Shown here one piece after another: positions 8,108 through 59,317 of a DNA stretch of 64,000 bases. Source of the DNA: Kibdelosporangium persicum (GTDB lineage: Bacteria; Actinomycetota; Actinomycetes; Mycobacteriales; Pseudonocardiaceae); assembly GCF_013280595.1 (NCBI RefSeq), contig NZ_JAAATY010000005.1:62001-126000 (forward strand), read 5' to 3'. A program made the translations under genes and the position numbers. The notes beneath the pieces are model-generated. The model saw nothing but the letters and a program-made list of their open reading frames with translations, searched no databases and was not told the DNA's origin. Every line of letters begins with the position of its first letter. Positions within the stretch are counted from its first letter, which is position 1.

Positions 8108-8109
8108 GT

Positions 8110-10667: not shown

Positions 10668-10767
10668 GGTTGCACTCCTTCGTCTCGACCGCCATCGACG
10701 CTACCCCCGGGGTCCGACAAAATCATTGCGCGGAGCTTACGGCGACCTCTGGACCAGGAGCGATTAC

Positions 10768-11799: not shown

Positions 11800-11809
11800 G
11801 CCGCGAGGC

Positions 11810-11838
11810 TACTACAGACATAGTTCGGCTCGTAGTAT
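11810..11838 (+). promoter_or_regulatory. shared promoter/operator between FAD monooxygenase and WYL regulator
   Basis: An inverted repeat TACTAC (11810-11815) / GTAGTA (11832-11837) spans the 48-base gap. TAGTAT at 11833-11838 is a plausible -10 box nine bases before ATG 11848, which would make the regulator mRNA leaderless or nearly so. No Shine-Dalgarno precedes that ATG. Confidence 0.4.
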
Positions 11839-11847
11839 CATTCCGGC

Positions 11848-12813
11848 ATGCGAGCCGAACGCCTGGTGGCGCTGCTGTTCACGCTGCAGAGCAGGCGCAG
11901 CGCGACGATTCCCGAACTGGCCGAGGCGCTCGGCGTGTCCGAACGGACCATGCACCGGGACATCGCCGCGTTGCAGGCCACCGGAGTTCCGTTGTGGACG
12001 GAACCTGGCCGCAATGGAGGCGTCCGGCTGGTCGACGGCTGGCGCACCCGGCTCGACGGCCTGACATCGCGGGAAGCCGTGGCGATCTTCGCGATGGGCG
12101 TGCCGCGGGCACTCGCCGAACTCGGCCTCGGCACAGCCGTGTCGGCCGCGCACGCCAAGGTCTCCGCGACTCTGCCTGCCCCGCTGCGTGACCAGGCGCA
12201 GCACGTGGCGCAGCGTTTCCACCTCGACGCCCCGGGTTGGTTCAAGCGCGAGGACGAAGCCGAGCACCTCGCCGACGTCGCACGCGCGGTATGGGAGCAA
12301 CAGCGGATACGTATCGGCTACAGCAGTGGCGAACGGACGGTCGAGCGTGTACTCGACCCACTGGGGCTCGTACTCAAGGCAGGCGTTTGGTACCTCGTCG
12401 CGCGCGTCAACGGCAGCATCCGTACGTACCGCGTCAGCCGGATCACCGCGGTGTCAGAGCTCGACGAACACTTCGACCGGCCGACGGACTTCGACCTGGC
12501 GAGCTGGTGGCAGCAGTCGTCGGCGCAGTTCGAGCGGTCCCTGCAGCAGGTGAAGGTCCGGGTACGGCTCAGCCCGGTCGGCGTGCGCGCACTGCCGGTC
12601 GTGCTCGACCCGGACCTGGCGTCCCAGGCGCTCGCGCAGGCCCAGCCGCCCGGGCCGGACGGCTGGACCGAGGTCGAACTGGGCCTCGAACGCCCCGACA
12701 TCGCCGCCGGGCAGCTGCTCGCGTTGGGTGTCGAGGTGGAGATCGTGGAGCCGGAGGCCGTGCGGGCCGCGTTCGCGGACGCCGCACGGCGGATGTGGGA
12801 CCGTCACCGGTAA
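11848..12813 (+). CDS. WYL-domain transcriptional regulator (DeoR-like HTH)
   Basis: The 321-residue protein starts with a DeoR/HTH_11-type winged helix (MRAERLVALLFTLQSRR, ELAEALGVSERTMHRDI). It continues with a WYL domain in which KAGVWYLVARV and RTYRVSRI mark the ligand-binding Sm-like core, and ends with the WCX region. Such proteins sense small ligands or nucleic acids and regulate a neighbouring gene. The divergent FAD monooxygenase is the obvious target. The 3' end overlaps the convergent SDR gene by ten bases. Confidence 0.88.
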   Translation: MRAERLVALLFTLQSRRSATIPELAEALGVSERTMHRDIAALQATGVPLWTEPGRNGGVRLVDGWRTRLDGLTSREAVAIFAMGVPRALAELGLGTAVSAAHAKVSATLPAPLRDQAQHVAQRFHLDAPGWFKREDEAEHLADVARAVWEQQRIRIGYSSGERTVERVLDPLGLVLKAGVWYLVARVNGSIRTYRVSRITAVSELDEHFDRPTDFDLASWWQQSSAQFERSLQQVKVRVRLSPVGVRALPVVLDPDLASQALAQAQPPGPDGWTEVELGLERPDIAAGQLLALGVEVEIVEPEAVRAAFADAARRMWDRHR

Positions 12814-43504: not shown

Positions 43505-44341
43505 TCAGAGGCCTGGGAAGACTTTCATGGCGTTGCCGGACAGGACGCCGTCGAGAATGTTCCCCGGCAAGCCGAGAGCGGCGACCGCCTGGGCGTTGCG
43601 GGCGACGCCGGGGACGCCGGGCCAGTCCGTGCCGAAGATCCACTTGGTGGCGAGGCGATGGAGGTCGAAGCGGGCGTAGTACTCGGGCAGTTTCCGGGGT
43701 GGCAGGCCCGCGAGGTCGAGCCAGACGTTGGGTTTGGCCAACGCCAGGAATGCCGCGGTGTCGTACCACCAGCCGCGCCCGCCGTGCGCGAACACGAAGT
43801 CCAGGCCGGGGAACTCCTCCACGACGTCCAGCATCAGCTCCGGGTTTCCGTACTTCGACTGCGATCCCGGGAAGCTGGACACGCCGGAGTGGATGATCAC
43901 CGGCACGCCGCGTTCGACGCAGAGGGCGTACGCCGCGCGCAGTTGCGGGTCGCCGGGTGAGAAACCGCCGTGCACGGGGTGGATCTTCAACGCGACCGCG
44001 CCGAGGTCGAGCTGACGCTCCACTTCGGACGCCACGGGATAGTGCAGATGCGGGTTGACGTTGGCGACCAGCCGGAACCGATCGGGGTTGAAGTCCCTGA
44101 GCGGCAACAGGTCCTCGATCACCTGCGACCCGGTGGCGCGTGGACTGTACTCGCAGAACAACAAGGCACGGTCGACGCCCTCGGATTCCAGCAGCGCGAC
44201 GACCCTTGCCGGGATCGGGTCGCCGAAAGCGTCGTACGCGTCGCGCCACGGATAGCCGCGCGAGAACTCGGCCGCCCACTCCAACCACGCCGGCTTCACC
44301 GTGGACAGCCGGGGCATGTGCATGTGCGCGTCAACCAGCAT
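43505..44341 (-). CDS. metal-dependent amidohydrolase (amidohydrolase_2 family)
   Basis: The 278-residue TIM-barrel hydrolase or decarboxylase has the metal motif DAHMHMP at the N-terminus. KIHPVHGGFS and PVIIHSGVSS follow, then FAHGGRGWWYD and the terminal aspartate in IFGTDWPG. Members include gamma-resorcylate and ACMS decarboxylases. It is the last gene of the box operon and overlaps the ligase by 11 bases, so it may act on an aromatic acid or a ring-cleavage product. Confidence 0.82.
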   Translation of the reverse strand: MLVDAHMHMPRLSTVKPAWLEWAAEFSRGYPWRDAYDAFGDPIPARVVALLESEGVDRALLFCEYSPRATGSQVIEDLLPLRDFNPDRFRLVANVNPHLHYPVASEVERQLDLGAVALKIHPVHGGFSPGDPQLRAAYALCVERGVPVIIHSGVSSFPGSQSKYGNPELMLDVVEEFPGLDFVFAHGGRGWWYDTAAFLALAKPNVWLDLAGLPPRKLPEYYARFDLHRLATKWIFGTDWPGVPGVARNAQAVAALGLPGNILDGVLSGNAMKVFPGL

Positions 44342-45944
44342 GAGCCGCAGCCGCCGTCAGAGTGCCGTACACGTGCTCCCGCAACACATTCCGGCGGACC
44401 TTGCCGGTCGCGGTCTTCGGCAGTTCGCTCACGACGACCACCGCGCGAGGCCGTTTGAACGCCGCCAGGCCCTCGCGGCACCAGGTGATCAGCTCGTCGG
44501 CGTCGACCGGCACCCCGGAAACCGGGACAACACAGGCGACCGGCTTGTCCAGGCCGTCGGCGTCGGGGGCGGCGACCACGGCGACCTCGGCCACGCCCGG
44601 GTGTTCGAGCAGCCGCTCCTCCACCTCGGCGGGCGAGACCCAGATGCCGCCGGCCTTGAGCATGTCGTTGGAGCGCCCCAGGCAGCTGTACGTGCCGTCT
44701 TCGTTGCGCATGTACGTGTCGCCCGTGCGCAGCCATTCCCCTTGGAACACTTGTCGTGTGGTCTCCGCACGGCACCAATAGCCTGTCGCGACCGAAGAAC
44801 CGCGTAAGTACAGGTCGCCGGGCTGCCCGGCCGCGGTGATCACGCCGCCCTGCTCGTCTCGCAGTTCGACGTCGTACCCCGGCACCGGGACACCGGACGA
44901 TCCCGGGTGCACGGCACCGGGACGGTTCGACAGGAAGATGTGCAACGCCTCGGTGGAGCCGATCCCGTCGAGCACCTCCAGCCCGAACCGGTCACGGATG
45001 CGTTGGTACAGCACGGGAGGCAGCGCCTCACCGGCCGAGATCCCCTGCCGGACACCGGTGAAGGTGTCGTCCGGGATGTCGCTGTGCAGCAACGCCGAGT
45101 AGAACGTCGGCACGGCGAAGAACAACGTCGGCTGATCCGAGCGGACCTTCTCGGCGACGAGCCGCGGGGTCGGGCGTGTCCGTTCCAGGATCGCGCTGGC
45201 CCCGACCGCGAACGGGAAGAAGCACGAGTTGCCGATCCCGTAGGCGAAGAACAGTTTCGCCACGGACAGGCACCGGTCGTCCGGGCCCATGTCGAGCACG
45301 CCCTTGCCGTACGCCTCGGCGACCATCCGGATGCTGGAGTGCCGGTGCATGGCGGCCTTCGGCAAGCCGGTCGTGCCGGACGTGTACAACCAGAGCGCGG
45401 GCGAGTCCTGCCAGGTCTCGTAGGGCCGCCTGGGAACGTCGCCTTCGAGCTCCAGCCACTGCCGGACCCGGACACCTCGCCGGGGCGTGAACCGCACCTC
45501 GCCGTCCAGCAGGACATCGGTCACCTCGGGCGCCGCCGCCACCGCCGCCTGCGCGACCTCGGCGAACTCGGCCGACACCGACAGCACCCTGGCCCGTGAG
45601 TCGGCCAGGACCTTGCCCAGCTCGGGGCCGGTGACCATGGTGGACGTGGGGACCGGGACGGCGCCGATGTACATCGCGCCGAGGATGCCCGCCAGCAACT
45701 GGATGTCGTCGGCCATGCAGAACATGACCCGCTCCTCCGGCCGGACGCCGATCGAACGGAAGGCGGCGGCGCTGCGCCGCATCTCCTCGCCGAGTTCGCG
45801 GTAGGTCAGGCTGCCCGACTCCGCCACGACCGCCAGTCGTTCGCCGCGCCCGGCCTTGACGTGCCGGTCCACCAGGTACTCCGCGGCGTTGAACGGCATG
45901 CTGCCTGGCTTCACCGAAGGCGCAGTTGACGGCAAAGCAGACAT
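44331..45944 (-). CDS. benzoate-CoA ligase family protein
   Basis: The 537-residue adenylate-forming enzyme has the P-loop-like LYTSGTTGLPKAAMHRH, GIGSTEALHIFLSN, WLRTGDTYMRNEDG and C-terminal Lys in LPKTATGKVRRNVL. The N-terminal NAAEYLVDRHVKAGRGERLA is typical of benzoate-CoA ligases (BclA/BadA). It activates benzoate or a relative to the CoA ester consumed by BoxB and BoxC. The start ATG 45944 follows GGAGG by ten bases. Confidence 0.88.
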   Translation of the reverse strand: MSALPSTAPSVKPGSMPFNAAEYLVDRHVKAGRGERLAVVAESGSLTYRELGEEMRRSAAAFRSIGVRPEERVMFCMADDIQLLAGILGAMYIGAVPVPTSTMVTGPELGKVLADSRARVLSVSAEFAEVAQAAVAAAPEVTDVLLDGEVRFTPRRGVRVRQWLELEGDVPRRPYETWQDSPALWLYTSGTTGLPKAAMHRHSSIRMVAEAYGKGVLDMGPDDRCLSVAKLFFAYGIGNSCFFPFAVGASAILERTRPTPRLVAEKVRSDQPTLFFAVPTFYSALLHSDIPDDTFTGVRQGISAGEALPPVLYQRIRDRFGLEVLDGIGSTEALHIFLSNRPGAVHPGSSGVPVPGYDVELRDEQGGVITAAGQPGDLYLRGSSVATGYWCRAETTRQVFQGEWLRTGDTYMRNEDGTYSCLGRSNDMLKAGGIWVSPAEVEERLLEHPGVAEVAVVAAPDADGLDKPVACVVPVSGVPVDADELITWCREGLAAFKRPRAVVVVSELPKTATGKVRRNVLREHVYGTLTAAAAHAG

Positions 45945-45958
45945 GATCGCCCGTCCTC

Positions 45959-47380
45959 CTAGTGGAAGTACACGTACTCGTAGTCGAACGGCTTGCCGTT
46001 GATCCCGTTGGCCGGTGGCGCGACCCAGCTGGCGATCTTGCCGCGTTGGTGGACAGGGTGCATCAGCGACCGGACGAACGCCAGGTCCTCGCTGGTCGGC
46101 AGCCAGTTCCTGCTGCCCTTGCGCCAGGTCTCCTCGTCGACGATCGAGCCGTCCGGCGTGATGTGGAACCCGGCGTGCAGGCCGACCTGCCGGTTGAACC
46201 CGACGTGCGGCAGGGCGAACCGGTACTCCAGATCCGCGTCGGCGAGGATCTTGTTCCACCGTTTGATGCCGCTCTGGCAGTCGGCGATGTACTCGCTGCG
46301 CAGGTCGAGGTTCAGCGCGAGCAGCGCGGAGAGCTCCTCGGTGGTCCACGTGCCGTCGGCGTTCGGGCGTTCCAGCTCGATGCCGTGCTCGGTGAGCCGG
46401 TGGTCGTCCTTGCGGCGCTCCTCCATCCAGCGGCCCTTGAGCCCCGCGGTGAAGTAGTTCGCCGCGTTGGTGGACGTCTCGCTGCCGAACAGGTCCAGCG
46501 ACACCGTGTAGTGGAAGTTGATGTACTTCTGGATGACGTCCAGCGGGATGCCGCCGTGCTTGCCGATGTCCAGCGTGTCGTGCTCACGGATCAGCTGGGC
46601 GCTGCGCGTCACCACGCGGTCGACACCGGTGGTGCCGACGAACATGTGGTGCGCCTCCTCCTTGAGCATGAACTCGCAGGTGCGCGACAGCGGGTCGAAG
46701 GCGCTCTCCTTGAGCGTGCCGAGCTGGTACTTGCCGTCCCGGTCGGTGAAGTAGGTGAACATGTAGAACGCCAGCCAGTCCGCGGTCTCCTCGTTGAACG
46801 CACCGAGGATACGCGGCGAATCCGGGCTGCCGGAGTTGCGGACCAGCAGCGCCTCCGCCTCTTCGCGGCCCTCCCGGCCGAAGTAGGCGTGCAGCAGGTA
46901 GACCATTGCCCAGAGATGCCTGCCTTCCTCCACGTTCACCTGGAAGAGGTTGCGCAGGTCGTACAGGCTCGGCGCGGTCAGGCCGAGCAGTTTCTGCTGT
47001 TCCACCGACGCGGGTTCGGTGTCGCCCTGGATCACGATCAGCCGCTGCAGGTCGGCCCGGTACTCGCCGGGCACCTGCTGCCAGACCGGTTGTCCTTTGT
47101 GCTCGCCGAACGCGATCCGCCGGTCCGGCTTGGGTTCGGCCAGGAAGATGCCCCACCGGTAGTCCGGCACGTCGACGTGGTCGAAGTGCGCCCAGCCGTC
47201 CCGGCCGACGCTGACGGCGGTGCGCAGGTAGACGCCGTGCGTCTCCAGCGCCGGGCCCATCTCGCCCCACCAGTTCATGAACTTCGGCTGCCAGCCCTCC
47301 AGCGCGCGCTGCAGCCTGCGGTCGGACGACAGGTCGACGTTGTTGGGGATCTTGTCCTCGTAGTCGATCGAGGTCGTCAT
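45959..47380 (-). CDS. boxB: benzoyl-CoA 2,3-epoxidase subunit BoxB
   Basis: BoxB is the di-iron oxygenase that epoxidises benzoyl-CoA in aerobic benzoate breakdown. The 473-residue length is normal. Di-iron ligand helices are visible in NVEEGRHLWAMVYLLHAYFG and FMLKEEAHHMFVGTTGVDR (E-x2-H type), with NEETADWLAFYMFTYFTDRD between. The start ATG 47380 lies two bases after the boxC stop. The reductase BoxA is not in the window. Confidence 0.93.
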   Translation of the reverse strand: MTTSIDYEDKIPNNVDLSSDRRLQRALEGWQPKFMNWWGEMGPALETHGVYLRTAVSVGRDGWAHFDHVDVPDYRWGIFLAEPKPDRRIAFGEHKGQPVWQQVPGEYRADLQRLIVIQGDTEPASVEQQKLLGLTAPSLYDLRNLFQVNVEEGRHLWAMVYLLHAYFGREGREEAEALLVRNSGSPDSPRILGAFNEETADWLAFYMFTYFTDRDGKYQLGTLKESAFDPLSRTCEFMLKEEAHHMFVGTTGVDRVVTRSAQLIREHDTLDIGKHGGIPLDVIQKYINFHYTVSLDLFGSETSTNAANYFTAGLKGRWMEERRKDDHRLTEHGIELERPNADGTWTTEELSALLALNLDLRSEYIADCQSGIKRWNKILADADLEYRFALPHVGFNRQVGLHAGFHITPDGSIVDEETWRKGSRNWLPTSEDLAFVRSLMHPVHQRGKIASWVAPPANGINGKPFDYEYVYFH

Positions 47381-47382
47381 GC

Positions 47383-49023
47383 TCACACCCGCTTCCTGTC
47401 GAAGATCGCCTTCTGACCGGTGCCGTACCGGCGTAGCGCGCCTTCGTCCCCGGCCGCGCCGGGCCGGGTGAAGATCCAGTTCTGCCAGGCCGACAACCTG
47501 CCGAAGATCTTGGTCTCGATCGTCTCGGGGCCGGTGAACCGCAGGTTCGCCTCCAGACCGGTGCACGCGTCGGGCGAGAGCGAGGCCCGGCTCTCGATCG
47601 CGATCCGGATCTCGTCCGCCCAGTCGATGTCGTCCGGGATGTCGGTGACCAGGCCCAGCTCGTTCGCCTCGGCCGGGCTCAGCGGCCGGCCGGTCTCCTT
47701 GCGCAGCCAGTCGACGTGGTCCGGATGGCCGTGGAACCGGGACTCCAGCCGGGAGATCCCGTTGCCCATCGGGAACAGCCCGAAGTTCGCGTCGGTCAGC
47801 GTGAGCGCCGCGCGTTCCTCGCTGTCCTCGTCCTCGACCGGCGGGCCGTCCAGCATGTACTGCCGGTCGGCGGCGAACGCCAGTTCGGCCAGCATCCCGG
47901 CGAAGCAGCTGCCGGGCTCGACCAGGGCGATCAGGCTGCGGCTGGTGACGTCGAGCCGCTTGAGGGTGCGTTTGTAGTACCGCAGGATCTCGTCGGCCAG
48001 CCAGTGGTCCTGGTTGCCGGCCAGCAGGTTCTCGTAGGCCCCGACGGTCTCGGCGTCGCCTTCGGTTCTGATGATCCAGGTGCCGAGCGTGGTCTCGTTG
48101 GTGCGCAGCCGCAGGATCAGGTCGTCCAGCTCGCGGGTGACCGCGAGCGGCCAGAACGACGCGTCCAGTTCGGACACCGCGGGTGGCGCTGGTACCCGCG
48201 GTGCCCGGACGGTGATGGTCACCGCGGAGGTGGACCTGTCGAACTCCGCCGTGACGTGCTCGTAGCGAATCCCGTCCGCGCTGATTTCCCGGTTGAGCGG
48301 CGTCAGCTCCACGCCACGCGCGTCCCGTGGCCGGGCGGAACGGGCCGCGAGTTCGGCGGCACGGGCGCGGACCGCGTCCTCGAACCGGCGTGGCGGAGCG
48401 AGTTCGTCCACCAGGCGCCAGTCCAGCGCGGTCCTGCCTTTCACCCCGTCCGGCCGGGTGGCGAACACGTCGGCCAGGTCCTTGCGGACTTTGCGCTTGT
48501 CCACCACGCGGGTGAGCCCGCCGGTGCCCGGCAGCACGCCGAGCAGCGGCACCTCAGGTAAGGACACCGCGGCGGAGTTGTCGTCGACGAGCAGGATGTG
48601 CTCGCAGGCCAACGCCAGTTCGTACCCGCCGCCCGCGCAGGAGCCGTTGACGGCGGCCAGATACGTCTGCCCGGCGGAGTCCTCCATGGCGTTGCGGGTC
48701 TCGTTGGTGAACTTGCAGAAGTTGACCTTCCACTCGTGCGACGACGCGGCCAGCATCCGGATGTTCGCGCCCGCGCAGAACACCTTGTCCTTGCCGCTGG
48801 TCACGACGACGGTGCGCACCTCGGGATGCTCGAACCGCAGCCGTTGCGTGGCGTCGTAGAGCTCGATGTCCACACCGAGGTCGTAGGAGTTCAGTTTCAG
48901 CTCGTAGCCGGGGACGATCCCGCCCGCCTCGTCGACGTCGAGGACCAGCCAGGCGACCTCCCCGTCGGTCCGCAGCTGCCAGTGCCGATAGGTGCTCGGG
49001 TGCGCGTCGAAGGACACGTCCAT
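47383..49023 (-). CDS. boxC: benzoyl-CoA-dihydrodiol lyase BoxC
   Basis: BoxC opens the epoxide ring hydrolytically, giving dehydroadipyl-CoA semialdehyde and formate. The 546-residue protein is a double crotonase fold: the first half has VFCAGANIRMLAASSH, NGSCAGGGYELALAC and VPLLGVLPGTGGLTRVVDKR; the second has EPGSCFAGMLAELAFAADR. The start ATG 49023 follows GAGGAGG by five bases. It is first in the operon boxC-boxB-ligase-amidohydrolase. Confidence 0.93.
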   Translation of the reverse strand: MDVSFDAHPSTYRHWQLRTDGEVAWLVLDVDEAGGIVPGYELKLNSYDLGVDIELYDATQRLRFEHPEVRTVVVTSGKDKVFCAGANIRMLAASSHEWKVNFCKFTNETRNAMEDSAGQTYLAAVNGSCAGGGYELALACEHILLVDDNSAAVSLPEVPLLGVLPGTGGLTRVVDKRKVRKDLADVFATRPDGVKGRTALDWRLVDELAPPRRFEDAVRARAAELAARSARPRDARGVELTPLNREISADGIRYEHVTAEFDRSTSAVTITVRAPRVPAPPAVSELDASFWPLAVTRELDDLILRLRTNETTLGTWIIRTEGDAETVGAYENLLAGNQDHWLADEILRYYKRTLKRLDVTSRSLIALVEPGSCFAGMLAELAFAADRQYMLDGPPVEDEDSEERAALTLTDANFGLFPMGNGISRLESRFHGHPDHVDWLRKETGRPLSPAEANELGLVTDIPDDIDWADEIRIAIESRASLSPDACTGLEANLRFTGPETIETKIFGRLSAWQNWIFTRPGAAGDEGALRRYGTGQKAIFDRKRV

Positions 49024-49075
49024 GGGGCCTCCTCGGCTATGAAGGTACCGCACCATCATCTACAGAACCAAGCGC

Positions 49076-49227: not shown

Positions 49228-51051
49228 TCAAGTGCGCGCCTCCGAGGTGATCAGCACTCGGAGGTGGGCGGCCAGCCAGGTTGCCGGGGCAGGATCTCCG
49301 ATGAAGTCCTTCAGCAGGCGTGACGGCGTGCGTAAGCCGATGCGGTGCATGTCCTCGGCGATCTCGGTCAGGCGGGATCGCAGGCTGGGTGGCACGTCCC
49401 GCAGGCCGCGGTGGGCGGCTTCGGCGAGAACCAGCAGCGCACTGTCCAGTGTGGAGGTTATTCGGTCCGGTGTGGACATGGAGCTCGGCAGGCCGGCCGC
49501 GGAGGCGGTCGCGAGATCGGGCACGACGACGCCGGACGGCGTGAGTACGGCCAAGGGGTCGATCACGATCGTGCCGCGCGTGCGGCGCAGCGTGCCACTG
49601 ATGTGTGTGGGTGACGAGCGCAGCGCTTCGACCAGTGCGTCCAGGGACTGCGGGCAGACGCCCCGGTACGTCGCGGACACGACGGCTGTGCCGCCCGCCG
49701 CGTCGGCGACGACAGCCTCAAGGGTTTGGGCTGCGGGGTCGTAGCCGATGGCACGGAGTTCGGCGACCTCGACGACCCGCACGAGTTCGGCGGCGACACG
49801 GGCGCGCACGACGCGCGGCCGCAGGGCGTTCAGCTCTTCGGCGCACGCCGCCAAGTCGCGGACCAGCAGCGAGTCCGGCAACTCCTGCCAAGCCGTGCCG
49901 ACGGGAGTGACCGACGTCTGAGCGACCCGGCCGGCGCGTAGGCGGAGCACACGGCTCGCGCTGCGCGAAACCGACTCAGACACGACGTTGGCCGCCGCCG
50001 TCCGGGTCGCGGTGCGCATCGGCGCGTCGCGGTGCACCAGGACCATGTCGCCAGAAGCGAAGTACACGTCGGCAGTGCGCTCGTCGGGAACGCCGTTCAC
50101 CCGGCAACCCAGTGCTGTCAGGCGAACGCGGCGTAGCGGCGTCTCCGCGGGCTCGTCCGTGCCGAGGACCTCTGAGCGCGGGCCCGTGGCGCGGCTGCGG
50201 GCGTGCAGTTCGGTGACCAGCTCGGCGAATCGCTCCGCGCGGTACCTCGCACTGCGTTTGCGGTACGCGCCAAGCTGGTCGAGCAGATCCTCGACCGCGG
50301 CGGCAGGCCAGTGCATATGCCGCGCACTGAGATCACGCTGGACTCGACGCCACGCGGCGTCCAGCACCGGGCCCGCGTGCGCGGCGCCATCCGTCAACAG
50401 CTGGGCCAGCAAGTCCTCCAGCGAACTCAGATCACCGGCCTCGACCGCACCTCCGCCCACGTCAAGCTTCGTGACGCCCGCCGCGTCAGCCTCACGGAAC
50501 GCCCACACAGCAAGCACAATCGCCTCGTCCCGGCGTGCGGCTTCCACGTCGGTATGGACGTACCCCAAGTCTCCCGGCACCAGGAAACGGACTGTGCACG
50601 TGGGCAGCTCCGCTGTCGCAACCGGGTCGGCCGCCGTCGGCCTACGCACGGTCGCCGAATACCCTGACCGCAACGTCCGGCGAGCCTGCTGCACCAGGCG
50701 CTGGCCGAACCGCGCCACCAGTTCCTCGTCTGTCACCGAACCCGGCGACCACGGCGGCACTTCGGTGACGGGGTTCTCGACCGCACGCTGATAGGCCAGG
50801 ACAAGCGCGATGCGGTGTCGGCACACGCCGAGCGCGCCGCAACTGCACGCCGCCGCGTCGAGCGGTGTGCCTGGTGGCAGGGACGAGGCGACGCCATCGG
50901 CGAACTTGCCGTGCACCGTGCCGTCCGCGGCGACCTCGACGGCAGGGCCCGCACCGGCGTCGAGTTCTTTCGTGGCCCGCTTGACCAGGCCACGGTTCGC
51001 GAGCGCCGCCAGCCCGTCGGGGGTGAGCGCGAGCAGGTCGGGTCTCGTCAT
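49228..51051 (-). CDS. SWIM zinc-finger protein (YehQ-like)
   Basis: The 607-residue protein has an N-terminal SWIM zinc finger: CSC (69-71) and CRH (77-79), i.e. C-x-C-x5-C-x-H, right after DGTVHGKFADGV. The rest is a long alpha/beta and helical region without recognised domains. SWIM fingers bind nucleic acid or protein. It is the last gene of the five-gene operon and overlaps the VWA gene by four bases. E. coli YehQ, encoded in the same kind of gene set, also has a SWIM finger. Confidence 0.82.
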   Translation of the reverse strand: MTRPDLLALTPDGLAALANRGLVKRATKELDAGAGPAVEVAADGTVHGKFADGVASSLPPGTPLDAAACSCGALGVCRHRIALVLAYQRAVENPVTEVPPWSPGSVTDEELVARFGQRLVQQARRTLRSGYSATVRRPTAADPVATAELPTCTVRFLVPGDLGYVHTDVEAARRDEAIVLAVWAFREADAAGVTKLDVGGGAVEAGDLSSLEDLLAQLLTDGAAHAGPVLDAAWRRVQRDLSARHMHWPAAAVEDLLDQLGAYRKRSARYRAERFAELVTELHARSRATGPRSEVLGTDEPAETPLRRVRLTALGCRVNGVPDERTADVYFASGDMVLVHRDAPMRTATRTAAANVVSESVSRSASRVLRLRAGRVAQTSVTPVGTAWQELPDSLLVRDLAACAEELNALRPRVVRARVAAELVRVVEVAELRAIGYDPAAQTLEAVVADAAGGTAVVSATYRGVCPQSLDALVEALRSSPTHISGTLRRTRGTIVIDPLAVLTPSGVVVPDLATASAAGLPSSMSTPDRITSTLDSALLVLAEAAHRGLRDVPPSLRSRLTEIAEDMHRIGLRTPSRLLKDFIGDPAPATWLAAHLRVLITSEART

Positions 51052-52151
51052 GTCAGCTTCTCCGCCACGAACTCAGCCAGCTGGCCCGGCGTCATCGCAC
51101 CTACGTGAGCACCCACGTTCGCCAGCCGCTGAGCGAGCATGCGGTCGTACGACGGCACCGCCTCGTCATCGAGCGCCGCGAGCCCCAGCACGTGCGTGCC
51201 TTGCTCGACGAGCTTGCGGACAGTACGGATCAGGTCCTGTTCGTCGCCGCCTTCGTAGAAGTCGGTGATGACGGCGACGATCGCACGGCGCGGGTTGTCG
51301 ACCAGGCCCGCGCCGTACGCCACCGCACGGGCGATGTCCGTGCCGCCGCCGAGCTGGACCTTCATCAGCAGCTCCACCGGGTCGGTCACGTCCGACGTCA
51401 GGTCCACGACGCTCGTGTCGAACGCGATCAGGTGCGTACGCAGCCCTGGCAGGCTCCACAGGCACGCCGCCGTCACCGCCGAGTGGATCACCGAGCTCAC
51501 CATCGACCCCGACTGGTCCACGATCAGGATCAGCTGCCACTGTTCGACATTACGGCGGGTCCGGGAGACGAACTTCGGTTTCTCGATCGCGATCCGCCGC
51601 TGATCCGGTTGGTAGTGCGCGAGGTTCGCGCGGATCGTGGCCTTGAAGTCGAAGTTGCGCGAGTTCTTGTGGTTCGACGGGCGGCGCGACCGCGCGCCGG
51701 TGAACGACTGCCGGACCTCCGTGGCCAGTTTCTCCATCAGTTGCCGCACAACGGCTTCCACGATCCGGCGGGCCATCGCGAGCACCGCAGGGTTCATCAG
51801 GTGCTTGGTGCGCAGCACCGCCCGCAACAGCGCGGGGTTCGGCTCGATCCGTTCCAGGACACTCGGGTCGGTGACGACGTCGGCGATCTCGTACCGCTCG
51901 ACGGCGTCGCGCTCCAGCCGTTCGATCGTCTCCCGCGGGAAGAGCTGGTGGACCTCGTCCAGCCAGTCGACGGTCCGCACCACGGACTCACCGCTCCCGC
52001 CCCGCCGCACGTCCCGGTCGGCGAGGTCATCGTCACGTCCGTACAACCAGTCCAGCGCGGCGTCGCGGCGGGCGGCACCCCCGCTGAGCGCTCCGGTGCA
52101 GCGCTCGGCGGGCGGTCCCAGGATCAGCCGCCAGCGTTCCAGGTCGGTCAT
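51048..52151 (-). CDS. CoxE-like VWA protein (YehP-like)
   Basis: The 367-residue protein has a helical N-terminal half and a C-terminal VWA domain with an intact metal site: DQSGSM at 212-217, LGGGTDIARAV and ITDFYEGGD. VWA proteins of this CoxE type pair with MoxR ATPases, here the one at 54382-55458. There is no membrane segment, unlike the VWA protein at 27720. Both ends overlap neighbouring genes by four bases. Confidence 0.87.
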   Translation of the reverse strand: MTDLERWRLILGPPAERCTGALSGGAARRDAALDWLYGRDDDLADRDVRRGGSGESVVRTVDWLDEVHQLFPRETIERLERDAVERYEIADVVTDPSVLERIEPNPALLRAVLRTKHLMNPAVLAMARRIVEAVVRQLMEKLATEVRQSFTGARSRRPSNHKNSRNFDFKATIRANLAHYQPDQRRIAIEKPKFVSRTRRNVEQWQLILIVDQSGSMVSSVIHSAVTAACLWSLPGLRTHLIAFDTSVVDLTSDVTDPVELLMKVQLGGGTDIARAVAYGAGLVDNPRRAIVAVITDFYEGGDEQDLIRTVRKLVEQGTHVLGLAALDDEAVPSYDRMLAQRLANVGAHVGAMTPGQLAEFVAEKLT

Positions 52152-54382
52152 GCCAGTCCCTCCCGTACCAGCAGCTCGTCCACGCGCCGGTCGAGTGCCA
52201 TCGCCTCGGCGACCACGAGCGGGTCGACGGTGGTGCGCAACAACGATCGGGCCGAACCCGGCGCGCCGCGGTGCGCGAGCACCCGTTCGGCGATCGTTTC
52301 CCGTTCCAGCGGCGGGAAGTAGGCGAACGCGAGGCGCAACGCGGGCAGCGCGACCAGGAACTCGTCCTCGGTCATCGCGTGCACCAGCTCGTCCAGCACC
52401 CCGACGACATGACCGCTGGTCAGCACTTCTTCGCGGGCCACCGCGAACAAACCCGACAACCAGTCGCCCAGCGTGTCCGGGGCGGCCATGCCGCGCACGG
52501 CTCGCTCGACGTCGGGCAGTTCGCCCAACGCCCAGCCCAGGCCGAGGGCTCCACCCCGCAGATCGGGCGGGGCTTCGGGATCGCCCGCGATCCGGCGAGC
52601 CACTCCCCTGACGTCACCGCGTTCCACCGACAGCACGGAATCCGCGTGCAGCACCGCGTCCCGGACCGCGACCAGCGCCCGTAGCCGCTCGGTGTCGGCT
52701 GGCGCCGGACCACTGTGCAGGCCCTCAACGAGCCACAGGATTCTGGTCACGGTCACGTCGATCACCGTGCCCAGCACCGGGTCCCGCGCTGTTCCGAACA
52801 CCCTGTCGTGCCGCCACAAGCCGAGCACGCCCGCGAGTACGGCGCCTAACGCCGCCACGTCGCTCCCGCCCCGCACTCGCCGAGCCAACGTGGTGGTCAC
52901 CTCGTCGGACATCGTCGAGATCCCGCACAGCGCCGCGTCGAACAGGATCGCCGCCAGCGCCGGCATCGACGCGTCGGGAATCCGGCGCTGCAACGCCCCG
53001 CCCGCCGCCTCGCCCAGCGTCGCGCCGAACGCCGCCGCCTCGATCAACGCACCGACCCGTTCATCGCACGGCGTCAGCTGCCAACGCTCGTCCAGCACGG
53101 GATCCGCACCTGACGAGGGACCGGACTGCCGCACGAATCCCGGAATGTGCAGCACCCGCAAGCGGTGCAACACACGGCTGCGCGTCATCTCGGCCGGATC
53201 GGTGAGGTCGAGGTGGACCAGGCCCTCGCGGTCGAGCCGCAGCTCCTGAAGCTCTTGCAGCACGGCCGAAACCAGCGGCGGCGCGGGAGTGGCCGGGTGC
53301 AGCCTGCCAACCCGGTCACCACTCAGCGCCGCCACCATTTCCACGAGCGCGGGATGTGCGCCCGGCAGCAGCGGGCCACGGCGCGTCCACGGCGGCGGTT
53401 GCGTGAGGTCCTCGGACACCAGCGCACTGACCAGACCGTCAAGCACGTCCGTCCGCGCCGGGTGCACGTGACCACGCAGCCGGGCGAGCCCGGCCGACAA
53501 CGTCCGCGCCGCGATCAGGTCCGCTGTCGACACCGGCTGCTTACGGCGACGCAGCCGGTCCACGACGGACTCGACAAGCCCGTCAGCCGCCTTGGCGAGT
53601 CCGTCGGTCCAGACCTGGTGGTAGTACTCGGGCGACGGCATGCCGGACTGGTAGCCGGTGAACGCGTCCAGCCGCTGATGCGAGTACGGCACCAGATAGC
53701 TCGCGCCGGACGACCGGGGAATCTCGGGCCAGTCCGTGTCACCGGTCACCGTCATGGCCTTCAGGGCAGGCATGTGGAAGCCACCCGTCACGACGACTGC
53801 AGGACGGTCGCCCGCGTGGTGCACCGCGGCGCGGACCCAGCGCGCCATGTACTCCTCGCGGGCTGTGTCGCCCTCGTCGGCCGCCTCCGAGCCGCGCAGC
53901 AGGTCGAAGTACTGCGCGAGCCGGTCGGCTATGTCGTCCGGATCTGCTTCGAAAAGGTGGTCCCACAACGTGTCCACGTTGTCCGCCGCGAACTCCCGGC
54001 ACAGTCGCTCGGTGACCTCGGCGTAGCGCAGCTCGGCGTCGGCGTACCGGTTGCTACGCCCCGCGAACGCGGGATGCCACGCGGGCAGGTCGATGAACCG
54101 GACGTCGGCGCCGGTCGCGCGGCCGGTCGTCAGCGCCACCCATTCTGGCGAGTAGTCGCAGAACGGTGTCCACGAGGCGGTGCCGAAATGATCGGCACCG
54201 CCGTCGTAGCTGAAGATCGCGATCGGCAGCTCGTGGCCGAGCAGGAGCTCGTCCAGCCGGTCGTTGACGTCCGCGGGTCCCTCGATGAGCACGTACGCGG
54301 GTTTCAGCCGCTCGATGGTCTCGGCTACCAGCCGTGCGCACGCCGGGCTGTGGTGGCGGACGCCGATGAACGTCGCCGTCAT
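52148..54382 (-). CDS. DUF5682 family protein (YehM-like)
   Basis: The 744-residue protein opens with FIGVRHHSPACARLVAETIE and AYVLIEGPADVNDRLDELLL, a pattern shared with TraB/EreA-type folds (His pairs and acidic loop). It continues with VVTGGFHMPALKAM and a long helical C-terminal region. E. coli YehM is of this type. Function is unknown; the His/Glu motifs could form a hydrolase site. The start ATG overlaps the ATPase stop by one base (TGATG). Confidence 0.8.
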   Translation of the reverse strand: MTATFIGVRHHSPACARLVAETIERLKPAYVLIEGPADVNDRLDELLLGHELPIAIFSYDGGADHFGTASWTPFCDYSPEWVALTTGRATGADVRFIDLPAWHPAFAGRSNRYADAELRYAEVTERLCREFAADNVDTLWDHLFEADPDDIADRLAQYFDLLRGSEAADEGDTAREEYMARWVRAAVHHAGDRPAVVVTGGFHMPALKAMTVTGDTDWPEIPRSSGASYLVPYSHQRLDAFTGYQSGMPSPEYYHQVWTDGLAKAADGLVESVVDRLRRRKQPVSTADLIAARTLSAGLARLRGHVHPARTDVLDGLVSALVSEDLTQPPPWTRRGPLLPGAHPALVEMVAALSGDRVGRLHPATPAPPLVSAVLQELQELRLDREGLVHLDLTDPAEMTRSRVLHRLRVLHIPGFVRQSGPSSGADPVLDERWQLTPCDERVGALIEAAAFGATLGEAAGGALQRRIPDASMPALAAILFDAALCGISTMSDEVTTTLARRVRGGSDVAALGAVLAGVLGLWRHDRVFGTARDPVLGTVIDVTVTRILWLVEGLHSGPAPADTERLRALVAVRDAVLHADSVLSVERGDVRGVARRIAGDPEAPPDLRGGALGLGWALGELPDVERAVRGMAAPDTLGDWLSGLFAVAREEVLTSGHVVGVLDELVHAMTEDEFLVALPALRLAFAYFPPLERETIAERVLAHRGAPGSARSLLRTTVDPLVVAEAMALDRRVDELLVREGLA

Positions 54383-55458
54383 CAGCCGGGCAGCAGGTGC
54401 CGGGCCTGGTGCAGCGCCTGCCATTGCTCCCCCTTGCGGCGGCTCGCGTGTTGTTCCAGGTAGCGCCGCAGCCGGGCGAGATCGTCGGCGTTGTCCTTGG
54501 CCGCCGTGCCTGCCAGGCACTCGACCACATCCGCCGGCGTGCCCTCCTCGCCGCGCAGAAACCAGCCACGTAACCCGACCGCGTGCGCGACCGACACCGC
54601 CTCGGCTGTGCTCATGACCGTGGACAACCGGTCGCTGCCGTTGCCGTCACGCAGGTCGCGGAACGTGCGGACCAGCACCTCCAGCACATCGCGGCGCGGC
54701 GGCAGCCCGACGCCGGACTGCGCGAGCAGCTTGCCCGCCTCCTGCTCGACCAGGCTCAGCTCGGTCTGGAAGTCCGGGATCGGGAACACCGTCTCGAAGT
54801 TGAAGCGCCGCTTGAGCGCCGCGCTCATCTCGTTGACACCCCGGTCACGGGTGTTGGCGGTGGCGATGACGTTGAACCCGGCCTTGGCGAACACCATGCC
54901 GTCCGGCCCGGTCAGTTCCGGAATCGCCACGACCCGTTCGGACAGCAACGACAGCAGCGAGTCCTGGACCTCCAAGGGACAGCGGGTGATCTCCTCGAAC
55001 CGCACGATCCTGCCCTCGGCCATGCCGCGCAGCATCGGCGCGGGCACCAGTGATCGGGTGGACGGTCCTTCCGCGACGAGCAGCGCGTAGTTCCACGAGT
55101 ACTTGATCTGGTCCTCGGTGGTCGCCGCGCCGCCCTGGATGGTCAGCGTCGACTCGCCGCTGACCGCCGCGGCGATCAGCTCGGACAACAGGGACTTCGC
55201 CGTGCCCGGCTCCCCGACGAGCATCAGGCCGCGGCTTGTCGCCAGCGTCACCAGCGCTCTGTCCACCAGGGACGGATCGCCGACGAACTTGCGGCTGATG
55301 TCGCGAGCCGGATCACCCACGATGAACCGGCGGGCCGCCTGCAGGCTCATCGCCCAGCCCGGCGGTCGCGGGCCGCTGTCGTCCGCGCGCAACCGCTTGA
55401 GTTCGTCGGCGAACCGGATCTCCGCGGGCGGCCGCTGGAGGGAGGTGTTGTCACTCAC
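54382..55458 (-). CDS. MoxR-type AAA+ ATPase (YehL-like)
   Basis: The 358-residue AAA+ protein has Walker A VGEPGTAKS (81-89), Walker B RIVRFEEITR (150-159), sensor-1 FNVIATANTRDRGVNEMS and the arginine-finger region SAALKRRFNFETVFPIPD. It is a different subfamily from the ATPase at 29584-30552. It probably drives remodelling of clients brought by the VWA protein. It starts 24 bases after the DUF4132 gene. Confidence 0.9.
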   Translation of the reverse strand: MSDNTSLQRPPAEIRFADELKRLRADDSGPRPPGWAMSLQAARRFIVGDPARDISRKFVGDPSLVDRALVTLATSRGLMLVGEPGTAKSLLSELIAAAVSGESTLTIQGGAATTEDQIKYSWNYALLVAEGPSTRSLVPAPMLRGMAEGRIVRFEEITRCPLEVQDSLLSLLSERVVAIPELTGPDGMVFAKAGFNVIATANTRDRGVNEMSAALKRRFNFETVFPIPDFQTELSLVEQEAGKLLAQSGVGLPPRRDVLEVLVRTFRDLRDGNGSDRLSTVMSTAEAVSVAHAVGLRGWFLRGEEGTPADVVECLAGTAAKDNADDLARLRRYLEQHASRRKGEQWQALHQARHLLPG

Positions 55459-55482
55459 TGGATCACTTCCGGTTTCACAAGG

Positions 55483-58400
55483 TCAGTCGGTGAGGGAGGC
55501 GAACTCGGACAGCAGTTCCGACGCCGTGACGGCGTCGACATCCGGGACTGCGGCGGCGTTCCTCGGCGAGGACCAGTAATCGTGGCCGTCTCCGCCGGGC
55601 GAGAACGACAGACCGGCCACCTTCTGCTCGGGAAACTCGTTGACCAGTCCGACCGCGATGCCCGGCTCGAGCCCCACGACGACCGCGCCGCCGGACGGTA
55701 ACGGCCGGGTGATCCAGCACTCGATGCCCGCGTCCTGTGGTTCCCCACGGACCCAGCCGCGCTTGGTCAGGCCGAGCAGCTTGCCCACCGGGACCACCAG
55801 TCCCTCGAACTGCTCGAGCAGTTCGGCGAACGGCCGCTCCGGATCGACCTCGTGCACGGGCCTGCCCAACTGCGGGAATGGTTGCAGGATCTCGTAGTCC
55901 GCGAACACCTCGCCCCACGCCGCCAACGTGTCCGCGTCGAGAGTCACCGGGTGGGCGATGCGCACCACCGCGTCGTCCGGCAGCACGAACGTGTCGTCGT
56001 CGGCGTTGGCGAACGTGCGGTCTTCGGCCAGGCGGAAGGTCTCGCCCGCGTCGGTGGTCCAGACGAGCCTGCGGACGATGTGCCACAGCAACGGATGCCC
56101 GGCCAGCAGGTCACGGAACTCGGTCGCGGTCCAGGTCCGCTGGGTGACCAACGCGGCTTCGAGCCGGTGGATCTGGTCCGACGCGATCGTGCGCACGTCT
56201 TTCTTCAACGCGGTGAACCGCTTGTACTCGGCCGCCGCGACCTCCTGGTCGTCACGCGCGCCGGGTTTCGGCAAGTCCTTGCGACGCTTGCCATCCGAGT
56301 CGACGACGTACGGCTTGAGCTGCTCGTCGAAACCGACGGTGAACTTGCGCGTGCCGTAGTCGATCGTCAGCGACGCGGTGTCGTCCAGGCCGAGCCGCGG
56401 CACCAGCCGGTCGGCCAGCTGCTCACGGCTCAGCCCCAGCTGGGCGGCGATGGCGGCGACCTTCTCCCGCGCGCGTGCCTTGAGCGCCTTGAACTTCACC
56501 TTCTCCGCGATGCCGTTGAGGTGCGCGAGCGCCACCTCGGTGCCGATCTCGGCGAGCACGTCCAGGCCCGCGACGGCGCGCTGATGCTGGCTCTCCCCCG
56601 GCCATTGGCGGATCAGCGGCGACAGCCTCCGGACCGTCTCGTCGTCACCGAACCAGCCCAGTGCGGTGAACGCCCAACTGTCCTTCGAAGGCGCCCCGGC
56701 CTGCTGCCACAGCTCGAACAGCGCCCACCCGAACGACGCCAGCGAAGCCGGATCGCAGACATCTCGTGCGATCGGCAGGCCCGCGTAGACCTCGGCGGGC
56801 TTCGACAGGGCGGCGGTCATCAGCAGGTGGTTGATCGCGCTCGACGGCAACGCGTACTGCCCGTCGCGCAGCCGGACCTGGGGCAGCAGGTTGGAATCGA
56901 CCCACGCGCTCAGCGCAGGCAGCTTCGCGGGCAGGAGTTCGGTCTCGTCGACGTCGACCAATGCGCGTATGCCGTTCTGTGCCTCCTCGCCGTACTCGCC
57001 CGCGATGGCGACGAGGTCGTGCCCCCGCGCACCCAGGAAACGCAAAGCGGCCTCAGCGTTCGCCCGCGGGGCGCCTGGCTTGCCCAACGCGGCCGGAACC
57101 AGCAAGCGGACCGCGGTTTCACCATGGCGGACAAGCCAGTCCACGGCGTACTTGCGGGCGGACTTCAGGCGCGACAACCAGTCCGCCATCAGCGCGGCGA
57201 CCTCCGCCGAGGCGTACGGCATCAGCAACACGGCGCCGTTCGGCGCGTTGCCGGCCACCAGACGCACTATGGCGGGCAACGCGTCCAGACCGTACTTCGC
57301 GACGACCACCTTGCCCCACTCCTCGGCGTAGTAGACGTACGAAGTCGTCCAGTCGGCGAGCAGCGGGCGGATCATCTCCTCGGGCGCCCGCGCGAAGAAC
57401 GTCGCCTCGTGGTACCTGTCGGTATTGGTCCGCTGTTTGCTGTGGTACGTCTCCAGGTGCTTCGCCCAGTTGCCGTCGGACCAGTGGTCCCAGTAGCCGC
57501 GCACGGCGGCCCACTGCTCCCGCTCGCCGGGCTCCCACAAGATCGACGGCTCAGGCGCCTCGAGTCCCGTGACCACGATCGGCTTCACCTGCTTACGGCT
57601 GCGCGTCCACGGCGGGTCAACGAGCAACGGCGGCAGCAGGTCCGCCGGAGCATCAGGCAGCACGTCCGCACTCGTGGTCACCTCGTCCGCGACCGCCCGC
57701 ACCTGCTCGGGCAACTCCAGATCGGGATGGGACTTCAGGTGCGCGTCGAACAGTGTGCGGGCTTGCTTGTCCTCAAGGGCGCGTTCGGCCAGCAACCGCG
57801 CGGCGCGCCGCGGATACGCCTTCATCGCGGCGAGCAGCGCCGGCTGAACCTTGTTCTGCGCCACCCGGTCGAGCAACGCGAGGAAGGCCTCGTCCGTCGG
57901 CATCGCCGCCAGCACACTGACGGTCCGCTTGCGGAAATCGGTGTGGTGATGGGTGTCCAGTTCGGCCGCCAGCCTCGGCACGACCGCCGGGCCGACCGCC
58001 TCGATGAGGGTGTACAGCACGCCCTTGTCGAACGCGATCCCGTGTGTCCTGCTGAGCGCGGCGAGTTCGTCCGCCGTGCCGACACTGCGCGCGACAAGCA
58101 ACCACAGCTGGTATTCCACGTGCTCGGCCAGCGCCTCGGCGACCCAGTCGGATCGTGTCGGCATCAGGTACGCCCGCAGCACGTTCGGCATTCCTGGCGC
58201 GCCAAGCGGTTCGAGCGCCGCTTCAGCCGCGGCGTAGTCGGCGTCGCTCGCCGCGGCCAAAGCCGTCCTGATCACCTCGGTGCCGACGGTGATGAAGTGG
58301 GAGTAGACCGGCAGGTCGTCGGACTGCGGCAGCACCCAGCTCGGCGCGCGCTCGCCGTTGCGCCAGAAATGCCCGGCCGAGTTGTCGACCGCCACGGTCA

Positions 58401-58776
58401 CCTTGGCGCAGTTCAGCACCGCCTCGGCGGCGAAGACGACCCCGTGCTCGGCGACCCAGTAGTGGACGAGCGTGCTCATGTCGTCCCGGTCCTGGTTGTC
58501 GAAGGTCGCGGCCATCCGCACCACCGCCGCACCGAACGGGGTCACGTCACCCGCGAGATACGCGCGGCCGGCCTCGGCGAGCGGCTCGGCGGACCGCGGG
58601 TCGCCGAAGATCCGTTCCAGGCTGGTGCGCAGCTTGCCGACCAACGCGGCCCCCGCCGCGATCGCCTGCTGGTCCGGCTGGAACTCGGGTTCGCCGCGAT
58701 CACGGCGTGAGTGCGCGAACCGTCTCCATGCCGACGGCATGACGAACGTGTCCTCGTCCAGTCGCGGCTTGCCCAC
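55483..58776 (-). CDS. very large DUF4132 protein (YehI/MolR-like)
   Basis: The 1097-residue cytosolic protein has HEAT-like helical repeats through residues 200-700 ([53 protein letters not shown]). A C-terminal DUF4132 region contains [40 protein letters not shown] and RRLVWTT. I see no separate WGR domain, which the E. coli YehI protein has. The start GTG 58776 has GGGTAGGA upstream. It is the first gene of the operon and is divergent from the GNAT gene. Confidence 0.85.
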
Positions 58777-58882
58777 CTGTGTCCTACCCCCTGCGGTCGA
58801 TCCGATGTTGCGGTGAACCGTACGGCAGGGGTCCGACAATTCCGGATAACCTCGGCTCAGCCGACCGACGACTGGGGAACGA

Positions 58883-59317
58883 ATGATCACGATCGACGCT
58901 CTGGCACAGGCCGACCGCGCCGCGTGGCAACGGCTGTTCGAGGGGTACAACGCCTTCTACGAACACCCGATGCCCGCGGAGTTCTACGACCAGGCCTGGG
59001 CACAGTTCCAAGCAGGGGAACGGATGCACGCGCTGGGCGCGAAGCTCGACGGGAAGCTCGTCGGCATCGTGCACTTCCTTGTCCACGCCAACACGACCGC
59101 GGCGGACGTCTGCTACCTGCAGGACCTGTTCACCGATCCGGACGCGCGCGGGCAAGGCGTCGCCCGCGCGCTGATCGAGGCGGTCAAGCAGTGGGCCGCG
59201 GGCCAGGGGTGTTCCCGGGTCTACTGGCACACCAAGGAGGACAACCACACCGCGCGCCGGTTGTACGACGAGGTGGCGGAGAACCGGGGATTCATCCAGT
59301 ACGTCATTCCGCTGTAG
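58883..59317 (+). CDS. GNAT-family N-acetyltransferase
   Basis: The 144-residue acetyltransferase has an acetyl-CoA loop in YLQDLFTDPDARGQGVARAL and a final YWHTKEDNHTARRLYDEVAE segment. Its acceptor is unknown. It is divergent from the DUF4132 operon and its 3' end overlaps the convergent methyltransferase gene by 14 bases. Confidence 0.85.
   Translation: MITIDALAQADRAAWQRLFEGYNAFYEHPMPAEFYDQAWAQFQAGERMHALGAKLDGKLVGIVHFLVHANTTAADVCYLQDLFTDPDARGQGVARALIEAVKQWAAGQGCSRVYWHTKEDNHTARRLYDEVAENRGFIQYVIPL

Follow-up and report, generated by a model that had tools for sequence, protein, structure and literature searches.

The yeh genes are present in nearly all genomes of Escherichia coli yet are annotated as uncharacterised, and the likewise uncharacterised ddrTUVWX operon of Deinococcus (Deide_18730 to Deide_18690) is a strongly radiation-induced part of a DNA-repair regulon, the IrrE/DdrO-controlled radiation/desiccation response (RDR) regulon, according to excerpts of PMC5552922. 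We analysed a window of 64,000 nucleotides from Kibdelosporangium persicum (contig NZ_JAAATY010000005.1, positions 62,001 to 126,000), which carries on its minus strand, at 49228-58776, an operon of five genes for a DUF4132 protein, a MoxR-type ATPase, a DUF5682 protein, a CoxE-like VWA protein and a SWIM zinc-finger protein. The locus is a typical representative of the yeh set, it is kin to ddrTUVWX, and its DUF5682 protein probably begins with a domain of the TraB/Tiki fold. Joining yeh and ddrTUVWX, with a candidate catalytic site in DUF5682, turns two separate puzzles into one testable hypothesis. Relative to an earlier annotation of the window from its letters (hereafter the sequence-only reading), three findings are new: the TraB/Tiki-like domain, the kinship with ddrTUVWX and the presence of a second system in this genome. 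In the open-access literature searched, no paper was found that connects yeh with ddrTUVWX or that relates DUF5682 to the Tiki superfamily, nor were these links found in the searched text of PMC5552922 and PMC2669436.

The operon is orthologous to the E. coli yeh set

In BLASTP comparisons with seven yeh proteins of E. coli K-12, all five window proteins paired one to one with a counterpart, at identities of 65% for MoxR and YehL, 59% for VWA and YehP, 39% for DUF5682 and YehM, 34% over 526 columns for DUF4132 and YehI, and 27% over 609 columns (E 3e-42) for SWIM and YehQ. The K-12 gene order is yehI-yehK-yehL-yehM-yehP-yehQ, and the five shared genes are ordered as in the window. In E. coli, unlike in the window, yehK separates yehI from yehL, and the upstream gene yehF encodes a WGR domain; the window has a single DUF4132 gene, for which the Pfam scan gave no WGR match. 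In a tree of 21 MoxR rows, window MoxR, YehL and the protein of one further locus (L047) formed one starred clade with support of 100/100, separate from the other DUF5682-linked MoxR proteins; YehL sat on a long branch, for which the tool issued a warning. The MoxR subfamilies, including YehL, reportedly go back to Snider and Houry in 2006, and YehL is listed among them in PMC3893208.

The operon opens with the gene for the DUF4132 protein (58776-55483, with a GTG start at 58776; 1097 amino acids), whose Pfam match lies near the C-terminus. After a 24-base gap follow the genes for the AAA+ ATPase of the YehL type (55458-54382; 358 amino acids), the DUF5682 protein (54382-52148, with an ATG start at 54382; 744 amino acids), the CoxE-like VWA protein (52151-51048; 367 amino acids) and the SWIM protein (51051-49228; 607 amino acids), the three junctions overlapping by 1, 4 and 4 bases. 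Pfam cut-offs were cleared by DUF4132 (200 bits), AAA_5 (125), DUF5682 (364) and VWA_CoxE (197). The SWIM protein gave no SWIM match in the Pfam scan, and its assignment therefore rests on the motif CSCGALGVCRH (CxCx5CxH; 50847-50815, minus strand) and on homology to YehQ. A second SWIM-like motif of YehQ, CDCIEGTLCEH, is not kept in the window protein. Open reading frames, domains and translations agree with the sequence-only reading, which had described five minus-strand genes with this gap and these overlaps and had placed them in the same five families.

The five families recur together and in a fixed order

Scanning named genomes with a MoxR alignment returned at least 562 relatives, of which the best 80, all actinobacterial, were kept, and all five families were present in 70 of these 80 loci. 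Seven of the ten incomplete loci (L067, L080, L086, L090, L097, L106 and L116) end at a contig edge where the genes are lacking; L092 is cut downstream and also has no DUF4132 within its 6 kb upstream, no DUF4132 was found in L091, and the full-length locus L128 has a partial DUF5682 and neither VWA nor SWIM. Among 20 DUF5682 loci of a phylum sample, MoxR and VWA genes adjoin in 19, the 20th starting at a contig end. We also inspected 40 DUF5682 loci from the family of the window organism, picked by score class (20 yeh-type, 10, 5 and 5) and not randomly. MoxR and VWA were each present in 40/40 and SWIM, by profile or motif, in 35/40, with five of these 35 called by motif alone. The 20 yeh-type loci all had five genes in one order (20/20), the samples overlapping in that at least five of them (such as L152 and L053) were already among the 80.

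The sequence-only reading had matched the operon to YehI, YehL, YehM, YehP and YehQ, had taken conservation between an actinomycete and an enterobacterium to imply one functional unit, and had proposed a search for co-occurrence and fixed order of the families. The one-to-one pairing in the same order bears out the match, and orthology together with the fixed co-occurrence makes it very highly probable that the five genes form one functional unit.

DUF5682 of any layout was found in 90/200 family genomes and 21/296 phylum genomes. Systems with DUF5682 are also found in records of Pseudomonadota, Deinococcota, Bacteroidota and Fusobacteriota, the evidence outside Actinomycetota being plasmid-collection records and E. 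coli; several of the former, of 2.1-4.9 Mb (e.g. L140 and L141), look like whole chromosomes labelled plasmids. Flanks of at most 4 kb on each side were compared between genera for 49 of the 80 actinobacterial loci, some of the upstream ones being short or missing; of 957 locus pairs, 3 shared a gene upstream and 1 downstream. As the comparison included no control operon, it does not demonstrate mobility; the actinobacterial system could still be mobile.

Four layouts and a second set in the same genome

At least four layouts of DUF5682 systems were found. Layout A, to which the window operon belongs, is DUF4132-MoxR-DUF5682-VWA-SWIM, often with tandem DUF4132 matches (two or more in 44 of 106 loci, some being fragments); two rhizobial plasmids carry the variant MoxR-DUF5682-DUF4132-VWA-SWIM. 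A small local profile detected a WGR-like domain in 51 of these 106 loci, which include duplicates, at or just before the start of a DUF4132 match in the 40 loci listed; the domain was confirmed by Pfam in YehF, in two proteins from rhizobia and in one copy from Lentzea. In other proteins, WGR is a nucleic-acid-associated domain.

Layout B, SWIM-DUF5691-MoxR-DUF5682-VWA, was kept in 10/10 of the chosen family loci assigned to it and is also found in Deinococcus, Rhizobium, Methylosinus, Methylobacterium and Hymenobacter, the last with SWIM and DUF5691 fused. In L034-L036 the SWIM and DUF5691 genes diverge from the remaining genes, and a Fusobacterium locus has SWIM, MoxR, DUF5682 and VWA with no DUF5691 match. 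The genome of the window organism holds both arrangements, layout A here and layout B on a second contig, C34 (L033, G000:C34:86500-105635, positions 5148-12274). Of the two, the C34 set is the closer relative of the Deinococcus ddrTUVWX operon, with 67% identity for MoxR.

Layout C is MoxR-DUF5682/VWA-SWIM, to which Streptomyces atratus adds a separate DUF4132-domain gene. In several layout C loci the DUF5682 and VWA profile matches fall within one open frame, and a conserved protein of about 1650 amino acids is encoded immediately upstream of MoxR, the copy in L142 (2729-7651) giving no Pfam match. Layout D is VWA-MoxR-DUF5682, without a SWIM match in 5/5 chosen loci. Two conserved proteins of about 190 and 470 amino acids are encoded upstream in layout D; the pair in L145 (5633-7542) gave no Pfam match, and similar open reading frames occur in L184-L188.

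DUF4132 and DUF5691 were also considered as possible homologues, and nothing was found (hhalign probability 0.6). Gene position suggests that they play equivalent parts. Between the SWIM proteins of layouts A and B the finger region alone aligns, over 81 columns with an hhalign probability of 42.

DUF5682 probably begins with a TraB/Tiki-like domain

An AlphaFold (AF2) model of the DUF5682 protein, computed from 33 window and locus sequences, reached a mean predicted local distance difference test score (pLDDT) of 84.7 and a predicted template modelling score (pTM) of 0.78. In VIA-align, residues 1-216 matched best 7w5z_E, at Z 9.7 with a root-mean-square deviation of 4.3 over 184 residues; the next row scored 8.0, and the remaining rows mostly concern the helical C-terminal part. 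Since scores of 7 to 8 are usual even for models that have no clear match, this is a good match and not an overwhelming one. The PDB gives the matched chain the name "TraB family protein", with which a figure legend in the excerpted PMC10060162 is consistent. The predicted TraB/Tiki-like part covers residues 1-280 (54382-53543, minus strand), and the C-terminal half (residues ~370-740; 53275-52163, minus strand), predicted to be mostly helical, resembles HEAT-type repeats in both the model and the structure search.

Profile comparisons point the same way. Weak matches below cut-off to the ChaN Pfam model occurred in 7/33 and 6/27 members of two overlapping DUF5682 sets (best E 0.006), and to the TraB/PrgY/GumN model in 3/27 (best E 0.009); in the window protein, ChaN matched residues 173-204, around the late GxxH motif, at E 0.04. 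When the N-terminal profile was aligned by hhalign with a TraB/GumN-family protein of pCF10, which we take to be PrgY, 188 columns were paired with a probability of 48, against about 1 or less for five other profile pairings taken as unrelated, and the alignment paired the early GxxH, the Glu 24 residues on and the late GxxH.

Across four layouts, H10, E34, E80, D98, W140, E145, R163, R175, E176, M179, G200 and H203 are invariant in 138/138 rows (non-identical sequences covering 75% or more of the profile; a single unassigned row was excluded). In the window, H10, E34 and H203 are encoded at 54355-54353, 54283-54281 and 53776-53774 on the minus strand. The His-Glu pair and the late GxxH of the TraB/Tiki type are thus kept in all rows, with the His-Glu spacing of PrgY. 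In Ere and Tiki enzymes the His-Glu pair is thought to activate water, as stated in the excerpts of PMC6254334.

Several results weigh against this assignment. The Tiki-family Pfam matches stay below cut-off, and unrelated families appeared at similar E-values in single members, as if by chance. Foldseek with the full DUF5682 model gave no match at E <=0.001, a PDB profile search with the N-terminal profile returned repeat-protein and other unrelated matches alone, and YbaP, of the TraB family, aligned at a probability of 2.9 over a short stretch at the late GxxH alone. Nor does the fold alone prove hydrolysis, because the annotation of ChaN is that of a haem-binding protein and KRas was not cleaved by PMT, a member without the catalytic set (PMC6254334, in the excerpts used). 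A TraB-family match in 1/60 phylum genomes was set aside, its early motif looking atypical.

DUF5682 thus resembles the TraB/PrgY and Tiki/ChaN/Ere proteins in predicted fold, early GxxH, a Glu 24 residues on as in PrgY and late GxxH, and differs from them in its fusion to a long HEAT-like region, its encoding beside MoxR and VWA and a similarity that stays under Pfam cut-offs. On balance we regard the TraB/Tiki fold of the N-terminus as likely. The invariant residues argue for catalysis without proving it, and the case for a predicted hydrolase activity appears to us evenly balanced; if DUF5682 is a hydrolase, a peptidase is the most likely type.

Kinship with ddrTUVWX and links to genotoxic stress

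The excerpted PMC9510100 reports that in D. taeanensis an additional gene, for 78 residues, separates ddrV from ddrW, and the locus of this species has an annotated 78-codon open reading frame between MoxR and DUF5682. An open reading frame of this size at the described place identifies ddrT as SWIM, ddrU as DUF5691, ddrV as MoxR, ddrW as DUF5682 and ddrX as VWA. Identities between the window and D. taeanensis proteins are 42% for MoxR and DdrV, 28% for DUF5682 and DdrW and 37% for VWA and DdrX, and the C34 set of the window organism matches all five Ddr proteins. The window operon and ddrTUVWX thus share homologous MoxR, DUF5682 and VWA proteins and each include a SWIM gene and one further protein; they differ in that ddrTUVWX starts with SWIM and has the DUF5691 protein DdrU in place of DUF4132. 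Consistently, the Pfam scan gave no DUF5691 match in the window operon, unlike in the C34 set.

The excerpts of PMC5552922 report more than 10-fold induction of the SWIM gene of the Deinococcus operon and more than 5-fold induction of Deide_18720, Deide_18710 and the CoxE-like VWA gene Deide_18690, and an RDR motif (RDRM) site upstream of the operon in every analysed species having it. In D. taeanensis, an RDRM-type site ends 19 bases before ddrT. It agrees with the consensus at 12/17 positions, as does another place in the locus, so that its position and the published motif carry the weight; a relaxed pattern, expected 0.01 times, was written after the site had been seen, and this expectation is therefore flattering. 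In addition, the DUF4132 protein DRA0166 of D. radiodurans was strongly upregulated on DdrO depletion (PMC8533742, excerpts).

In E. coli, the gene molR presumably corresponds to yehF/yehH, just before yehI. A LexA-like site begins 25 bases before yehF, as one of two matches in 30 kb where 0.76 are expected; since such a match is not rare, its weight comes from the published lists of LexA-regulated genes that include molR (PMC11039860 and PMC4576408, as excerpted) and not from the scan.

Against a stress role stand the following observations. Deide_18700, in the ddrW/DUF5682 place, is not named in the excerpted text of PMC5552922, its most-induced list included. In E. coli, yehL-Q is preceded by its own 306-base gap, and the site before yehF may not control these genes. 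In the window, the two best matches to the 17-base RDRM consensus are found at 17615 and 21280, a long way from the operon, and no LexA-type box was seen upstream of it. LexA-type boxes occurred in 1/61 upstream regions of layout A (0.25 expected), 0/20 of actinobacterial layout B and 0/5 of alphaproteobacteria, and Iodobacter and Proteus had none; as the boxes did not exceed background, we discarded the idea that the actinobacterial operons are under SOS control. The ddrTUVWX kinship links the window system to genotoxic stress, and we put forward a role in this response tentatively.

A possible ATP-driven machine

In MoxR, which bears the Walker A motif GEPGTAKS (55215-55192, minus strand), G82, G85, K88, E155, E156, N202, D205, R217 and R218 are invariant in all 147 rows counted, and in VWA the DxSxS motif of the metal-ion-dependent adhesion site (MIDAS; DQSGS at 51518-51504, minus strand) is intact in 70/70 rows passing the coverage filter. 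Layout D counts against the machine proposed below, as its MIDAS threonine is replaced in 6/8 rows and the five chosen loci gave no SWIM, DUF4132 or DUF5691 match. NorQ-NorD, RavA-ViaA and CoxD-CoxE likewise consist of an AAA+ ATPase and a VWA partner, whereas the window system adds DUF5682, SWIM and DUF4132 and has no conserved client gene that we could see. NorQD illustrates how force can pass through a VWA finger located in the AAA+ pore, and the pair drives iron insertion (PMC13036017, excerpts). Taken as one class, the DUF5682 systems described here form a distinct variant among the MoxR-VWA systems.

From these comparisons we infer how the proteins may assemble, what they may cleave and what purpose they may serve in this organism. 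The five proteins would form one complex, in which MoxR, presumably a hexameric AAA+ ring, and VWA would together drive remodelling with ATP, like RavA with ViaA and NorQ with NorD. This pair may act on, or feed, DUF5682, whose N-terminal Tiki-type domain with an intact His-Glu-His set would be the predicted hydrolase, followed by the helical HEAT-like region. SWIM and DUF4132 (DUF5691 in the sister layout) would provide recognition and scaffolding, the probable target being nucleic acid or a protein bound to it. The physiological role would most likely lie in a genotoxic or desiccation-type stress response, not in phage defence. The ATPase-driven machine with a nucleic-acid- or protein-binding arm that the sequence-only reading had envisaged is sustained in the form of a probable nucleic-acid-binding arm, given the SWIM protein and the WGR-like domain in 51/106 loci. 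As a whole, an ATP-driven machine with a Tiki-type hydrolase in genotoxic stress is our best explanation, and we offer it with reserve. Its boldest extension is a new class of hydrolase machines, powered by ATP and spread over at least five phyla, which would work at damaged nucleic acid, with WGR/SWIM locating the lesion or stuck protein, MoxR-VWA pulling and DUF5682 cleaving; on this reading yeh, ddrTUVWX and the window operon would each represent one version of a single protease of the damage response. This extension is speculative and seems to us unlikely.

Alternative explanations

The MoxR-VWA pair could instead insert a cofactor, as in NorQD and CoxDE, with the TraB/ChaN-like domain of DUF5682 binding a metal or haem that is loaded into a client enzyme. 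The window VWA is indeed CoxE-like, NorQD provides the precedent of iron insertion, ChaN is the commonest Tiki-type Pfam match of the DUF5682 N-terminus, MolR has been linked to molybdate regulation (PMC8533742, as excerpted) and a weakly PaaA/PaaC-like gene lies two genes downstream of the operon. However, no client metalloenzyme gene conserved beside the pair was seen in the actinobacterial flanks (the 3 and 1 of 957 pairs above), the invariant residues of DUF5682 include the set expected of hydrolases, the Deinococcus operon belongs to a DNA-repair regulon and moeA and moeB were unresponsive in the DdrO-depletion study (PMC8533742, same excerpts). We therefore consider cofactor insertion doubtful.

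A similarly small chance attaches to a pure chaperone, in which MoxR-VWA would assemble or disassemble a stress-related complex and DUF5682 would be a catalytically dead TraB-type scaffold. RavA-ViaA sets a precedent, and a pair of folding or activation chaperones was proposed in 2009 for the MoxR-like Deide_18710 and the VWA protein Deide_18690 (PMC2669436, excerpts). Invariance of the His-Glu-His set and surrounding residues in 138/138 rows from four layouts would, however, be unusual for a dead scaffold.

Phage defence bears on the remaining alternative. Of 5426 E. coli genomes, 5162 had yehL-yehQ at a coverage of at least 80%; the corresponding numbers were 5177 for yehI, 5375 for metG and 576 for the K-12 mcrBC genes. 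The search needs high identity, so that mcrBC alleles of divergent sequence would escape it, and a covered gene need not be intact, one listed yeh copy carrying an inserted transposase. With its near-universal presence, the system resembles a host function in E. coli. PADLOC gave weak matches alone in the window (best 14.6 bits), and two pattern-based viral-contig scans found no relative. A location in a defence island was accordingly disfavoured. Published MoxR-vWA ternary conflict systems share the MoxR and vWA core and are defined by a VMAP, iSTAND, FtsH or beta-propeller third component (Kaur et al. 2020, PMC7159879, excerpts); none of the four gave a Pfam match in the five window proteins, bpMoxR reaching 24 bits against a cut-off of 27, and the link to these systems drawn by the sequence-only reading is thus not supported. 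A MoxR-vWA system serving phage defence or conflict between bacteria, in favour of which one may cite that published core, the patchy distribution of DUF5682 in actinobacteria and an Iodobacter plasmid copy near type I restriction genes, is improbable in view of the E. coli prevalence, the weak PADLOC matches and the empty viral scans. Where the sequence-only reading had suggested a function in defence or stress, stress has thus gained from the radiation-induced sister operon ddrTUVWX, and defence has lost ground.

Genomic surroundings

One relative came from a record labelled bacteriophage, the 14-kb clone MT835988.1 (L143) from human faeces, which carries MoxR-DUF5682-VWA and may be a bacterial fragment. 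In an E. coli ST131 sublineage, the resistance transposon TnMB1860 is inserted in the DUF4132 region (PMC9334617, excerpts), which indicates that the metG/DUF4132/yeh region tolerates disruption there. In the window, a GNAT gene on the plus strand diverges from the operon, whose promoter is therefore expected within the shared intergenic region 58777-58885. Directly downstream of the SWIM gene, at 44331-49059 on the minus strand, lie an enoyl-CoA-hydratase-like gene, the gene with the weak PaaA/PaaC match and a gene for an AMP-dependent ligase, which to our eyes resemble a cluster for aerobic (box-type) benzoyl-CoA degradation.

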